Source: Arcobacter sp. (GTDB lineage: Bacteria > Campylobacterota > Campylobacteria > Campylobacterales > Arcobacteraceae). From it: 64,000 nt of DNA. A program made the position numbers and the translations under genes. Positions 6,216 to 42,634 of this stretch are shown here, piece by piece (within the stretch, counting starts at the first letter, position 1; each line of letters begins with the position of its first letter). Location of the stretch: contig PKUJ01000023.1 in the NCBI GenBank assembly GCA_002869565.1, positions 1-64,000 of the forward strand. The letters are read 5' to 3'. Under the pieces are notes generated by a model. It made no database searches and was not told the origin of the DNA. It saw only the letters and a program-made list of their open reading frames with translations.

Positions 6216-7292
6216 ATGAAATTTGAAAAATTTGACAGTGGTAACCATTTTACATTAGGTGTAGAATTGGAACTTAGAATATTAGATAAATTTAATTTAA
6301 CTCCTTGCAATGAGTATGATTATATTATTTCGAATATAAGTGAAAAGTATAAAAAAAATATTGCCCGTGAATTTTTAGGTTCTATGATTGAAATTAATAC
6401 TACAATTTTTCATTATGAAAAAGATTTGATAGATTTTTTAAATAAAATTATGAATGAATTAAATAGAATTGCCGATAAAAAAAATCTATGTTTGCAAACT
6501 AGTGGCTCTTTAGCTCAAAAAAATATAAATATAGAAGTTAATATAAATGATAGATATGAAAAAATATATGATGAACATCAAATACTTTTAGACGATTTTT
6601 CAATATGTGGAACACATGTTCATATAGGTTTCGAAGATTCAGAAAAAGCTTTAAAGGCTTACAACTATTCTTTATATTATCTTCCTTTATTTGTTGCTTT
6701 GAGTTCTTCTTCTACATTTTTTGATGGTTTGAATACTGGTATCCACTCTTACAGAACAAAAATATTTGATAGGTTACCAAAATCTTCTATTCCAGATTAC
6801 TTTGATAGTTTTGATGAAATGAGCCAATTATATGAAATATTATATAAATCAAAAGTAATATCTAGCACAAAAGATATTTGGTGGGATGTTCGAATTCAAC
6901 CTCATTTTAAGACTTTAGAATACCGTGTATGCGATGCCATATGCGATTTTGATAGATTAGAAGTAATTATCTCATTATTTAAGATGTTAGGTCAATTATC
7001 TCAAATTGATGAAGTTACAAAAATGCCAATGCAAGTTTTAAAACAAAATATGTGGAGCGCAACTAGATATTCTATGAATGGAAACATGGTTACTAAAAAA
7101 GGCTTGGTACCTATAAGAGATATGTTAGAATCTTTAATTAAAAAAGCCCTTGATAATTCTTTATTAAGTAAAGATTCTTATGAGAAAGCCAAAGAAGTAA
7201 TCTGGAAAACAAGTATTTCAGAAGAGATGATAGAGATTTATAAAAGAACAAATAGTTTAAAAGAAGTAGAAAGATTAGGAGTATTTAAATGA
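6216..7292 (+). CDS. ybdK: carboxylate-amine ligase, YbdK / glutamate-cysteine ligase type 2 family
   Basis: 358 residues, normal length for the family. The signatures are GVELELRILD near the N-terminus (ATP/metal-binding glutamates), CGTHVHIGF near the middle and WWDVRIQPHFKTLEYRVCDA in the C-terminal half. Family members join a carboxylate to an amine using ATP; some have weak glutamate-cysteine ligase activity. The stop overlaps the start of the gamma-glutamyltransferase gene (ATGA at 7289), so the two are co-translated. This suggests a gamma-glutamyl compound is made and hydrolysed or transferred here, and the true substrate is not known. The 141-base gap upstream probably holds its promoter. 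Confidence 0.8.
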   Translation: MKFEKFDSGNHFTLGVELELRILDKFNLTPCNEYDYIISNISEKYKKNIAREFLGSMIEINTTIFHYEKDLIDFLNKIMNELNRIADKKNLCLQTSGSLAQKNINIEVNINDRYEKIYDEHQILLDDFSICGTHVHIGFEDSEKALKAYNYSLYYLPLFVALSSSSTFFDGLNTGIHSYRTKIFDRLPKSSIPDYFDSFDEMSQLYEILYKSKVISSTKDIWWDVRIQPHFKTLEYRVCDAICDFDRLEVIISLFKMLGQLSQIDEVTKMPMQVLKQNMWSATRYSMNGNMVTKKGLVPIRDMLESLIKKALDNSLLSKDSYEKAKEVIWKTSISEEMIEIYKRTNSLKEVERLGVFK

Positions 7293-8809
7293 AAGGTGTT
7301 GTTGCCGCAGGTGATCCACGAAGTGCACAAGCAGGTGCAGATATTTTAAAAGAGGGTGGAAACGCCTATGATGCAGCTTTAGCAGTTATGCTTGCTGCTC
7401 CAATGTGTGAACCTTTGTTTACAAGTTTAGGCGGAGGTGGTTTTCTTTTAGGATTAGAAAAAGATAAAAAACCTGAGTTGTATGATTTTTTTGTAGAAGT
7501 TCCTAAAAAAAGAATCGATGAACCAGAATTTTATCCAATTTATGTAGATTTTGGTGCCGCTATCCAAGAGTTTCATATTGGCGCTGGCTCAATTGCAATT
7601 CCAGGGCTTGTAAAAGGAATAGAAGAAGTCCACAAAGATAAGTGTACTCTGCCTATGAGTAAGATAATTGAACCTGCTGTTAAGTATGCTAGAGAAGGAG
7701 TTTATTTGTCTAAAATGCAAGCTAGTTTCGTAAAACTTCTTGAACCAATTTTTACTTCAACAAAATCTTCAATGGACGTTTATGGTTTAGAAGATGGCAC
7801 ATTAATTGATGAAATACACCTTTATAAAAATCCCCATTATGCTGATTTTCTAGAAGAGTTTGCAAAAGAGGGTGCAAAACTTTTTTATGAGGGGCATGTT
7901 GCCGATGAAATTGAAAAAATTTCAAAAGAGCATGATGGTCTGATTTTAAAAGAAGATTTAAAAAATTATAAAGTAATAAAAAGAACACCAATTGATTTTA
8001 TGTATAAAGATTTTGAGATAGTGACAAATCCTCCTCCTAGTGGAGGAGGAATTTTAATTGCTCTTACAATGAAACTTTTAGAAAACTATGATTTAAAAGA
8101 TTTTCGATCTTATGAGCATGTTAAAGGTTTAATTGAAGCTTTTAATACAACAAGTGACTTTAGAAAAGAACATGTGGATGAGTTTTTACATGATGAAAAG
8201 TTAAAATCAATTTTAGAAAATGATAGACTTATAAAAAATTATTGTACTACTATGCATTCACGATTAAATCTTTGGGGAAATACAACCCATTTATCAGTTA
8301 TTGATGAAGAAGGCAATGCTGTTTCTGTTACAACTACAAATGGTGAAGGTTCAGGTCATGTAGTCCCAAGTTCAGGAATTATGTTAAATAATATGATGGG
8401 ATAAGAAGATTTAAATCCCCATGGTTGGTTCTCTTGGGATGAAGGAATTAGACTTCCTTCTATGATGGCACCTACTGCCGTTTTAAAAAATGGTAAACCT
8501 GAACTTATATTAGGAAGTGCTGGAAGTAATCGTATCCGTTCGGCAATTGTAGGTACTATGATAAATAATCTTGAGTATGGAATGGATTTAGATAAAAGTA
8601 TTAATGCCCCAAGAATTCATTTTGAAAAAGGAGTAGTTTGCATGGAACCTCATGTAAATGAATATATAAAAACTGAACTTCAAAAACAATATAAATTTCA
8701 ATATTTTGATGATTTAAATATTTTTTTTGGTGGAGTTCAAGCTGTTAATGGAAAACTTGAAGGTGGTTGTGATTCAAGACGCGGTGCAGCAGTAATAAAA
8801 GTGGATTAA
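7289..8809 (+). pseudogene. ggt: gamma-glutamyltransferase, interrupted by an in-frame TAA
   Basis: Gamma-glutamyltransferase split by one stop codon at 8402-8404. Both halves lie in the same frame with no indel. The sequence reads LNNMMG, stop, EDLNPHGWFSW, where the family has LNNxxGEEDLNPHG, so the stop replaces GAA. The large-subunit part is complete (GDPRSAQAGADILKEGGNA, PPPSGGG), and the autoprocessing/nucleophile threonine is probably T332 in NTTHLSVID. The stop removes most of the small subunit, including the glycine-rich loop LGSAGSNRIRSA seen downstream. There is no signal peptide, so the intact enzyme would be cytoplasmic, unlike classical periplasmic GGTs. The gene overlaps ybdK by 4 bases. 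An ATG at 8462 could restart translation but would give only a fragment. Confidence 0.85.
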
Positions 8810-38634: not shown

Positions 38635-38651
38635 GGTTACGTGATGGTTAC
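38635..38651 (-). promoter_or_regulatory. putative Pho box upstream of pstC
   Basis: On the minus strand, two copies of GTAACC lie exactly 11 bases apart (start to start), each followed by ATC. The same arrangement is found upstream of pstS. An 11-base period is the known geometry of PhoB direct-repeat sites and of the Campylobacter PhosR box. AT-rich bases follow (TTTAATAAAATA) that could serve as a -10. The site overlaps the stop codon of the EAL-GGDEF gene. Confidence 0.72.
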
Positions 38652-40405
38652 AAGTTGCAGCAAATACCTAAAGGATGAGGTACAGTCTTTGATGCTTTTT
38701 TGATTTTTCCTAAATTAGAATTAAATATTTCCGAACTAGTATCTTTTTTTATTTCTACTATTGCAGAACTTACAGATAAAAGGTTGAATTTTCTATCAGT
38801 TCCAAACCTATCTTTTGTGATAATAAATTGGTTATTTAAATCTTCTTCTGAATATAGGCTTGAAGCACTACTTTTAAACTCTTGTTGTACTTGATTAATT
38901 AAAAGATATATCTCTTTATAATCTTTTTCTAAAAAGCCTACAAAAAAATCATCTCCTCCAATATGGGCTATAAAATTTTCTGTAGATATATGTTTTTGTA
39001 GTATTTCAGAGAACATTAATATTGCCCTATACCCTTGTCTAAAACCATAATAATCATTAAAAGGTTTAAAATCATTAAAATCAAAATAGACTATATGTGA
39101 AGGGATATTTTTTTTAAATATCTTTTGAATAAAGTTATCAATTTGTTTATTCCCTGGAAGTTTTGTTAATGGATTTTGATTTTGTGCAATTTCAAGATTT
39201 CGTTTGTATGAAAGAGATAAAAGATTATTAAGATTTATAAAACCATAATAGGCATCATTTTTTCTAACGAAAATACCTTTTGAATCATTTCTCATATTAA
39301 ACATTTCTAAAGCTTTGTCTATCCCCCAGGCAATATCAATTTCTAGTACAGGTTTTATATAAGTTCTAAGTTTTGTACTAAAAGAGACATTCTTCGCCAA
39401 AGATAAACCATATTGAGAATATGATAATTCTTTGATATCTACTTCGTAAATTACACCTTCTATTTTCTTCTCATTGTTAATTATAGGAACAAAGGTATTT
39501 TGTGTATGTTCTTTAAAATACAGAAATAAGTCATGTAATGAGGAATTAATATTTAAAGGAACGATTTTTTCAATATATGATTTATCAATAAAATTATTAG
39601 TCAAAGCTCTGCGGTCTTTTTTAAAAAGACCTCTAATCTCTGAATATGATTTCTGAATAAATTTTATATTTTGGCTGGGCTTTGAAATTAGATAACCTTG
39701 GATATAATCAGCTTTTATATCTTTGCAAGTGTAGTATTCTTCGATTGTCTCTATTCCTTCTGCAATGACTTTCATTCCCATTATATGGGCCATTTCTACT
39801 ATTGAAGAGCAAAAGAGTCTTTTTTTTGAATCACGATTAATTTCATTTATAAAAAATCTATCAATTTTAATAAAATTTGCTTCAGCAATATATAATAAGT
39901 GAAGTCCTGCAATTCCGGTTCCAAAATCGTCTATAGCTATATGATAGTTTTGTTTTTTATAGACATTAATAATTTCTTTTAATAAATCTTCATCTTCAAA
40001 AGAGTGATGTTCTGTAATCTCAAAACAAAGCTGGTTCTGCTCTAGATTTGCAGCTTCTAGTATTTCAGCTGTTTCTCCTACTTTAAAATCTGGCATATTT
40101 AGCATTCTATTGTCAAGATTATAAAATAGTTTTAAATTTTTAATATCGATTTTTTTAAATTTCTCTATTGCTTTTTTTCTTAAAATCATATCCATTTTGA
40201 AAAGTATTTGTTGTTTATTTAATTCATCAAAAAAGTCTTGTATTGTTTTAAATCCAAGTTCATCTGTATTTCGGATTAAAGCTTCTACTGCGTAAGTCTT
40301 TCCTGTATAAGTATTAACAATAGGTTGAAAAGCAAAATCAAGTTTATCAACGTCAATAGGTCGAAAAGCAAAATCAAGTTTCTCAACGCCAATTTTTGTT
40401 GACAT
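38648..40405 (-). CDS. EAL-CBS-GGDEF c-di-GMP enzyme within the phosphate block
   Basis: 585 residues in the order EAL (about 10-245), paired CBS-like region (about 270-400), GGDEF (about 415-585). The EAL catalytic set is intact: YAVEALIRN, FNLDNR, FEITEHH, IDDFGTGIAGL, FIKIDRFFI, AEGIET and GYLISKP. The GGDEF signature is GGDDF with an upstream FDFNDFKPFNDYYG, a form that can be active. Both synthesis and breakdown of c-di-GMP are therefore possible; CBS domains often bind nucleotides and could set the balance. It lies between pstS and pstC on the same strand. The N-terminus carries a 12-residue duplication (KLDFAFRPI / KLDFAFQPI). Confidence 0.85.
   Translation of the reverse strand: MSTKIGVEKLDFAFRPIDVDKLDFAFQPIVNTYTGKTYAVEALIRNTDELGFKTIQDFFDELNKQQILFKMDMILRKKAIEKFKKIDIKNLKLFYNLDNRMLNMPDFKVGETAEILEAANLEQNQLCFEITEHHSFEDEDLLKEIINVYKKQNYHIAIDDFGTGIAGLHLLYIAEANFIKIDRFFINEINRDSKKRLFCSSIVEMAHIMGMKVIAEGIETIEEYYTCKDIKADYIQGYLISKPSQNIKFIQKSYSEIRGLFKKDRRALTNNFIDKSYIEKIVPLNINSSLHDLFLYFKEHTQNTFVPIINNEKKIEGVIYEVDIKELSYSQYGLSLAKNVSFSTKLRTYIKPVLEIDIAWGIDKALEMFNMRNDSKGIFVRKNDAYYGFINLNNLLSLSYKRNLEIAQNQNPLTKLPGNKQIDNFIQKIFKKNIPSHIVYFDFNDFKPFNDYYGFRQGYRAILMFSEILQKHISTENFIAHIGGDDFFVGFLEKDYKEIYLLINQVQQEFKSSASSLYSEEDLNNQFIITKDRFGTDRKFNLLSVSSAIVEIKKDTSSEIFNSNLGKIKKASKTVPHPLGICCNL
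40319..40390 (-). repeat. 36-base tandem duplication at the start of the EAL-GGDEF gene
   Basis: Two adjacent in-frame copies encode (V)EKLDFAFRPI and (V)DKLDFAFQPI, offset by 12 codons. EAL domains normally begin with one such strand (FAFQPIVN), so the downstream copy is the native one and the upstream one is extra. The copies differ at several bases, so the duplication is not very recent. Confidence 0.85.
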
Positions 40406-41617: not shown

Positions 41618-41647
41618 TTTATACTTTAATGGTTACATTTTGGTTAC
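41618..41647 (-). promoter_or_regulatory. putative Pho box and -10 element of pstS
   Basis: On the minus strand, GTAACC occurs twice at an 11-base interval (41642-41647 and 41631-41636), with TATAAA at 41618-41623 seven bases further. The repeat sits where a -35 box would be, the usual position for PhoB-type activator sites. The same hexamer pair with the same spacing precedes pstC. Confidence 0.75.
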
Positions 41648-41672: not shown

Positions 41673-42518
41673 TTAATCATCTTTTCTACGTTTTCTCGGT
41701 ACTTGTAGAGTAGGATTGTTTTCAATATCATCTTTTCGTCTTTGAGGTTTTGTATTTGGAGAGTGTAAAAAATCATCTTTTCGTCTTCGATGCATTTGAT
41801 GTTTATTTATGGGGTCATCTTTTCTTCTTAATAAAAAAGATTGGAATTCTTCTTTTTCAATATCATCTTTTCGTCTTTTCCTTTGATGGTTACTTTGTAT
41901 TAATAAAAGTTCTTCTTTTCGAATCTTTTTAGAAGAATTCTGTGTTGAAGAATAATCATCTTTTCGTCTTTTAAGATTATTTTCAATTATTGCATGATTA
42001 TTTATTTGATTTGAATTACTTTTATGAGTAGGCTGTTTCTCCTGATAATTTACATCTTTAAAATCTATTTGTACTTTAAATAAATTTTGTTCAAGTAATG
42101 AAGATACAGAAGTTATATCTAAAAAAGTTATTTTTTCATTAGAATTATTTTTACTTAACCAATAAAAAAAATTTAAGACAAGGTAAGTTCTTTCGCTAAT
42201 AATTTTTAGTTTGAAAGAGTTTTTTATAATTACTAAATTGTTTAGTAAAGAAAATTTTTGACTAATAGAATATGAATTTTTAAAATATATATTTTTTTCA
42301 CTATTATCTAAATTGTCTAAAAATTCATTTATTCCATATTTTTCAATTCTTCTTTTTAAATTATTATTAACAGCTTTCCATAAAGAGTTTAATACTAAGT
42401 TATAGTTTTTTTTTATTAAAGCTTGCCTTGCATCTCTTAAATGGCCTATTTCCAATTCATTTAAAGAATAATCAAATTTATTTGGATTTAATAAAATAGC
42501 TGGAAGATTTCTGCTCAT
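41673..42518 (-). CDS. unknown protein with a C-terminal series of RRKDD motifs
   Basis: 281 residues, no family recognised. Residues 1-155 are a mixed, mainly helical domain (ARQALIKKNYNLVLNSLWKA, NNLKRRIEKYGI) of unknown fold, with no signal peptide. Residues 184-281 carry RRKDD at 184, 215, 231, 245, 260 and 277, plus a degenerate IRKEE at 199. The spacing is 15, 16, 16, 14, 15 and 17 residues. The last motif forms the exact C-terminus. Linkers between motifs are dissimilar and polar. The gene lies upstream of the pstS promoter on the same strand, with a gap of 73 bases, and looks independent. Possible roles (nucleic-acid binding, short linear docking motif, protease-processed repeats) are guesses. 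Confidence 0.8.
   Translation of the reverse strand: MSRNLPAILLNPNKFDYSLNELEIGHLRDARQALIKKNYNLVLNSLWKAVNNNLKRRIEKYGINEFLDNLDNSEKNIYFKNSYSISQKFSLLNNLVIIKNSFKLKIISERTYLVLNFFYWLSKNNSNEKITFLDITSVSSLLEQNLFKVQIDFKDVNYQEKQPTHKSNSNQINNHAIIENNLKRRKDDYSSTQNSSKKIRKEELLLIQSNHQRKRRKDDIEKEEFQSFLLRRKDDPINKHQMHRRRKDDFLHSPNTKPQRRKDDIENNPTLQVPRKRRKDD
41676..41969 (-). repeat. regularly spaced RRKDD-coding repeat
   Basis: The 15-base core AGACGAAAAGATGAT encodes RRKDD at four of six full sites; the other two use synonymous codons (AGA for CGA with GAC for GAT, or CGT AGA). Spacer DNA is not repeated. The pattern is therefore conserved at the protein level as well as the DNA level, with a period of about 47 bases that is always a multiple of three. 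Confidence 0.85.
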
Positions 42519-42634
42519 AAATTACCTTTATAATATTAAAATAGTATATTAACAATAAAGGAATTAAAAATAATTTAATGGAGTTGGAAGTTGTTTTTTT
42601 AGTTTATTTTGTGTGTGATTAGAAGGAAATGGGA

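Follow-up and report, generated by a model that had tools for sequence, protein, structure and literature searches.

A HEPN-like, apparently non-catalytic Arcobacter protein carries an evenly spaced array of RRKDD motifs in its C-terminal tail

The stretch of Arcobacter sp. DNA analysed here (64,000 nucleotides, hereafter the window) encodes on its minus strand a 281-residue protein, P0001, which we read as a non-catalytic member of the HEPN fold, or a close relative of it, extended by a disordered, multivalent C-terminal tail that most likely binds RNA. The nature of the ligand is argued by analogy, and the probability that we attach to this reading as a whole is about 0.4. Judged from sequence comparison, P0001 is the product of a real, conserved and lineage-specific gene with a syntenic orthologue. 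In what follows G000 is the source genome carrying P0001, whereas G004 and G007 are related genomes. The features of the locus are:

41673..42518, minus strand: whole open reading frame of P0001, 281 aa, ATG start and TAA stop; has orthologues, of which those in G004 and G007 give a dN/dS of 0.077 in the domain
42075..42518, minus strand: HEPN-like all-helical domain, residues 1-148; from AlphaFold2, structural matches and homology to 417-aa proteins
42129..42161, minus strand: place of the HEPN Rx4-6H site, WLSKNNSNEKI, residues 120-130; from alignment, catalytic R and H absent
41676..42062, minus strand: C-terminal tail, residues 153-281; from charge, with low AlphaFold2 confidence over most of its length
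41955..41969, minus strand: motif 1, RRKDD, residues 184-188; aligned to the single KRRKxD of short paralogues
41910..41924, minus strand: motif 2, IRKEE, residues 199-203; IKKED in the G004 orthologue
41862..41876, minus strand: motif 3, RRKDD, residues 215-219
41814..41828, minus strand: motif 4, RRKDD, residues 231-235
41772..41786, minus strand: motif 5, RRKDD, residues 245-249
41727..41741, minus strand: motif 6, RRKDD, residues 260-264
41676..41690, minus strand: motif 7, RRKDD, residues 277-281; stop codon directly after, and the G004 protein also ends on a motif
42525..42529, minus strand: likely ribosome-binding site AAAGG, 6 bases ahead of the P0001 ATG

The initial annotation had described six RRKDD motifs and one IRKEE at intervals of 14-17 residues, and this layout is confirmed by the residue positions: RRKDD starts at residues 184, 215, 231, 245, 260 and 277 and IRKEE at 199, with successive steps of 15, 16, 16, 14, 15 and 17 residues. 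When the tail was shuffled 100,000 times, no 5-mer rose above 4 occurrences, against the 6 observed, and the confinement of all six steps to 14-17 residues has a probability of 5.6e-5 when seven motifs are placed randomly in the same span. Three further claims hold equally well, namely that the last copy (residues 277-281) forms the C-terminus, that the motif codons vary synonymously (AGA, CGA or CGT for arginine, GAT or GAC for aspartate) and that the linkers are unrelated, the mean pairwise DNA identity between copies being 0.84 for motifs and only 0.36 for linkers. The synonymous changes, together with the difference between these two identities, show that the array is not the product of a recent tandem duplication. 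When the G004 orthologue is added, the motif is refined to [KR]RRK[D/N]D with a hydrophobic residue directly after it, present in 13 of the 14 non-terminal copies of both proteins taken together. The net charge of the P0001 tail is about +13.

Among the 150 related genomes searched, G004 provided a full orthologue, 54% identical across residues 2-281, whereas in G007 the match covered the domain half of P0001 (63% identity over residues 1-139). The G004 protein has 299 aa and nine motifs ([KR]RRK[DNA]D plus IKKED) at steps of 13-17 residues (random-placement p = 5.8e-6), and its C-terminus is again a motif, RRRRDD. The linkers have diverged between both proteins; the array thus keeps a constant design with a variable copy number, seven in P0001 and nine in G004, and the variation in motif number that had been proposed as a check is found here between species. 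Since the same design is kept, with nine copies, in a related species, the tail gives the impression of a genuine arm for binding at many sites. The end of the G007 copy is missing because its contig stops in adapter sequence: at positions 1-49 of this contig (L065, G007:C246), as at the end of L025, the sequence CTGTCTCTTATACACATCTGACGCTGCCGACGA..., which we take to be a Nextera-type transposase adapter, cuts the gene short and appends a spurious tail, VSYTHLTLPTKRIV. The P0001, G004 and G007 copies are all preceded by AAAGG, a likely ribosome-binding site, and the dN/dS of about 0.08 between the G004 and G007 domain copies indicates that the domain of the long form is under strong purifying selection.

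The helical domain upstream of the tail had been left unrecognised in the initial annotation, which is corrected here to HEPN-like on the strength of structural matches and of homologues bearing RNHASPAH. An AlphaFold2 model built from four sequences folds residues 1-148 into a helical bundle, with block pLDDT values mostly of 71-93 in residues 1-150, and assigns low confidence to most of the tail. The best VIA-align rows for the domain were 2jpu (Z 10.5), 2hsb (HEPN, Z 10.0), 2q00, 5yep and 1wwp, the MtlR structures 3brj and 6kcr ranking next; HEPN structures occupied the top rows with Z 8.6-10.5 over 105-117 residues and the domain appears to have the compact helical fold of HEPN proteins, although a Z near 10 is not decisive, as helical bundles often score so high. 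Foldseek alone returned no match to the domain with E < 0.001, Pfam gave no HEPN-family match for P0001 or its short paralogues and no match of the MtlR family to P0001 at E up to 10, PADLOC and NCBIfam held no match for P0001, and its PDB sequence search yielded nothing credible. Many HEPN families escape profiles, so that a missing profile match does not by itself decide membership. The domain is matched, with E 3.7e-13, by 417-aa homologues that carry RNHASPAH (in the context WMRNHASPAH), which fits the Rx6H definition given for HEPN RNases (PMC3710099). The corresponding residues are LSKNNSNEK in P0001 and KSNxNE in the short family; none of the three long forms, and no short paralogue covering the site, has the catalytic R and H. 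The VIA-align scores of about 10 and the homology to Rx6H proteins thus suggest that the domain of P0001 is HEPN-like and non-catalytic, and that the protein probably derives from an RNA-cutting enzyme whose cutting residues were lost.

The short paralogues, which belong to the same bacterial family, form an undescribed protein family of about 215 aa with the same HEPN-like domain, the same loss of Rx4-6H and one RRxxD motif, of which R, R and D are invariant in 13 sequences. The member in G000 (L022, 216 aa; G000:C9 1492-2139) and its orthologues occupy the same conserved position in two genera, next to rpsO and moaA; an ABC ATPase gene is also found at this locus. Whereas P0001 has a seven-copy array that forms its end and lies at the prfA/pstS locus, the short proteins have a single KRRKxD-type motif where array copy 1 stands, and after it the C-terminus runs into a conserved THQELLLK...YI end, strongly conserved as THQELLLKSGVK and continuing as THQELLLKSGVK...F...YI. 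In the alignment motif 1 of the array falls on the single motif of the paralogues and IRKEELLLIQS on THQELLLKSGV; a relative from a third genus, read across an assembly gap, has ERRKNR and KRRKED with the same YI end. The presence of the same domain with one KRRKxD-type motif in this family points to the array as an amplification of an older motif, and we infer that it grew from one ancestral copy.

The 417-aa proteins (L079 5001-6254, L112 5001-6254 and L009 1501-2751, on IMG/VR contigs and one MAG) are the opposite case: their N-terminal domain is homologous to that of P0001, but they keep RNHASPAH and continue into a further helical C-terminal region of 260 residues with no array. In the tree the long forms group with them, with support 85/41 and long branches, a placement too weak to show whether the long form arose by duplication of the short gene. 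Two of these homologues come from viral-contig records. Pfam provided no family name for these proteins; one of them gave a sub-threshold match to Abi_C (E 0.0058) and a weak PADLOC match to DUF3644 (E 0.0013), and an AlphaFold2 model (mean pLDDT 44.9) was too poor for use. Distant relatives occur on Streptomyces and enterobacterial plasmids. The 417-aa proteins may be HEPN RNases that belong to mobile elements.

A multivalent docking or nucleic-acid-binding tail was among the possibilities offered initially and survives as the best reading, with its ligand assigned by analogy. RNA is favoured because the tail is basic, disordered in the model and built of mixed-charge repeats, much like the RE[E/D]R region of RNase E in Pseudomonas, where the repeats contribute to RNA binding and focus formation and number from 8 to 23 between species (PMC11964227), and because an RNA-binding role has been suggested for HEPN domains that lack the catalytic motif (PMC3710099). 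Through their arginine/lysine ends the motifs would make weak but numerous contacts with RNA, and the protein could in this way hold or gather RNA or RNA-protein complexes at high avidity; the HEPN-like domain may provide dimerisation or a second RNA contact, and the acidic pair may limit non-specific sticking. No neighbour of the gene suggests RNA metabolism except the adjoining prfA.

The acidic pair of the motif and the hydrophobic residue next to it vary as little as the basic part does, a constancy that exceeds the needs of simple RNA binding and is rather like that of a protein-docking motif. It is therefore quite possible, if short of an even chance, that each [KR]RRK[DN]D-hydrophobic segment docks one folded partner or the HEPN-like domain of another copy, in which case one molecule would gather up to seven partners or build networks and the one-motif paralogue would dock once with the same partner. 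The even spacing of the motifs and the invariant R, R and D of the paralogues agree with protein docking, and MtlR, a structural match with the HEPN fold, works by binding the protein HPr (PMC6763467); this precedent and the retention of the acidic and hydrophobic parts place docking close behind RNA binding. However, gene order indicates no partner, no hydrophobic residue follows the terminal copies and the motif is not common to other proteins of the genome. Other proteins ending in RRKDD had been suggested as worth seeking in this genome, and none with the motif exists beyond P0001: RRK[DE]D is coded only within its reading frame (the seventh match to the pattern reads RSKED) and two additional KRRKND matches fall within reading frames of just 7 and 13 codons, so that no other protein of the genome shares the motif. 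A paired-motif search of 397 genomes of the phylum found true arrays in G000 and G004 only, the remaining matches being short-range with serine (AGT/AGC) in second place, interrupted by an in-frame stop or placed in a different frame. The tail used alone as a query within the genus retrieved the same two genomes, the phages and plasmids searched gave no match, and the string RRKDD occurs in three papers, none of which deals with bacteria to judge by title and abstract.

It is unlikely that the array is a low-complexity tail of little function, expanded in a recent ancestor of three species and kept by inertia. Its distribution would suit such an origin, since the long form occurs in three genomes only (G000, G004 and G007, all of one genus), with seven or nine copies, and most relatives have no long form. 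The gene adjoins prfA in all three genomes and lies directly upstream of pstS in G000 and G004, whereas 11 further species of the genus have prfA and pstS side by side, about 100-175 bases apart; another two species have other neighbours at pstS and no long-form gene. The empty site in these relatives points to a lineage-specific gain, many losses being less likely. Against inertia stand the conservation of motif over linker DNA and the synonymous changes within motifs, the C-terminal motif kept in an orthologue of just 54% identity and the invariant residues of the single motif in paralogues. Homologues with the same domain and no motifs had been named as the evidence that would reduce the array to a lineage-specific tail; the distant 417-aa homologues do lack the motif, but the nearest paralogues carry one. 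The retention of the array in a syntenic orthologue with a different copy number disfavours a neutral low-complexity tail.

Other observations concern the surroundings of the gene. The window contains exactly two perfect GTTAC-N6-GTTAC direct repeats (38636-38651 and 41632-41647), just upstream of pstC and pstS, which resemble the Campylobacter PhosR box; both are also present in G004 (L064: 3577 and 6537), and the repeat was not found in that form upstream of pstS in other species. A gene for an EAL/GGDEF-type regulator (window 38648-40405) lies between pstS and pstC, with the same order in G004. Elsewhere in the window a gamma-glutamyltransferase-like gene is apparently split into two reading frames 58 bases apart (7289-8404 and 8462-8809), possibly through a frameshift or as a pseudogene.

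An active HEPN ribonuclease, serving as toxin or defence effector with a basic tail that targets RNA, is very unlikely: the homology to Rx6H-bearing 417-aa proteins, with their two viral-contig records, speaks for it, but the catalytic residues are gone in all long forms and site-covering short paralogues, prfA and pstS flank the gene in place of the nucleotidyltransferase or antitoxin neighbour of MNT-HEPN toxin-antitoxin pairs, and PADLOC does not match P0001. The initial suggestion of a precursor whose cleavage at basic sites would free short linker peptides is barely credible, its sole support being the evenly spaced multibasic sites, against which stand a folded N-terminal domain, no visible signal peptide, prfA and pst genes as neighbours with no adjacent maturation or export genes, and linkers that differ between orthologues, the opposite of conserved products.

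RNA binding by the tail remains our preferred reading, and P0001 and its relatives represent an undescribed family of HEPN-like proteins, adding a case in which a HEPN domain lost its catalytic residues and gained a putative binding tail. It is tempting, if somewhat doubtful, to see in this metronomic array of an undescribed docking motif a new kind of bacterial scaffold, raised on a non-catalytic HEPN fold out of one ancestral motif; if so, the tail would bring together a single kind of partner, whether protein or RNA, in many copies and could drive clusters in the cell. One domain with a single motif in 15 short paralogues and with seven to nine copies in the long form allows direct comparison, so that the benefit of multiplying a short linear motif can be put to the test in bacteria, in which few proteins, RNase E among them, are known to have repeat tails of this kind.

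Among known systems, the MtlR-type non-catalytic HEPN members (PMC3710099; structures 3brj and 6kcr) have a helical fold like that of P0001 in structural comparison, and many of them have no catalytic motif, as is the case here; P0001 differs from MtlR in its missing Pfam match, in lying outside a mannitol operon and in its added repeat tail. With the C-terminal domain of Pseudomonas aeruginosa RNase E it shares a tail that appears disordered and a short mixed-charge motif in variable copy number. The RNase E/G catalytic domain is absent from P0001, whose 281 aa hold a HEPN-like domain only, and its motif is RRKDD, evenly spaced between unrelated linkers, where that of RNase E is RE[E/D]R.
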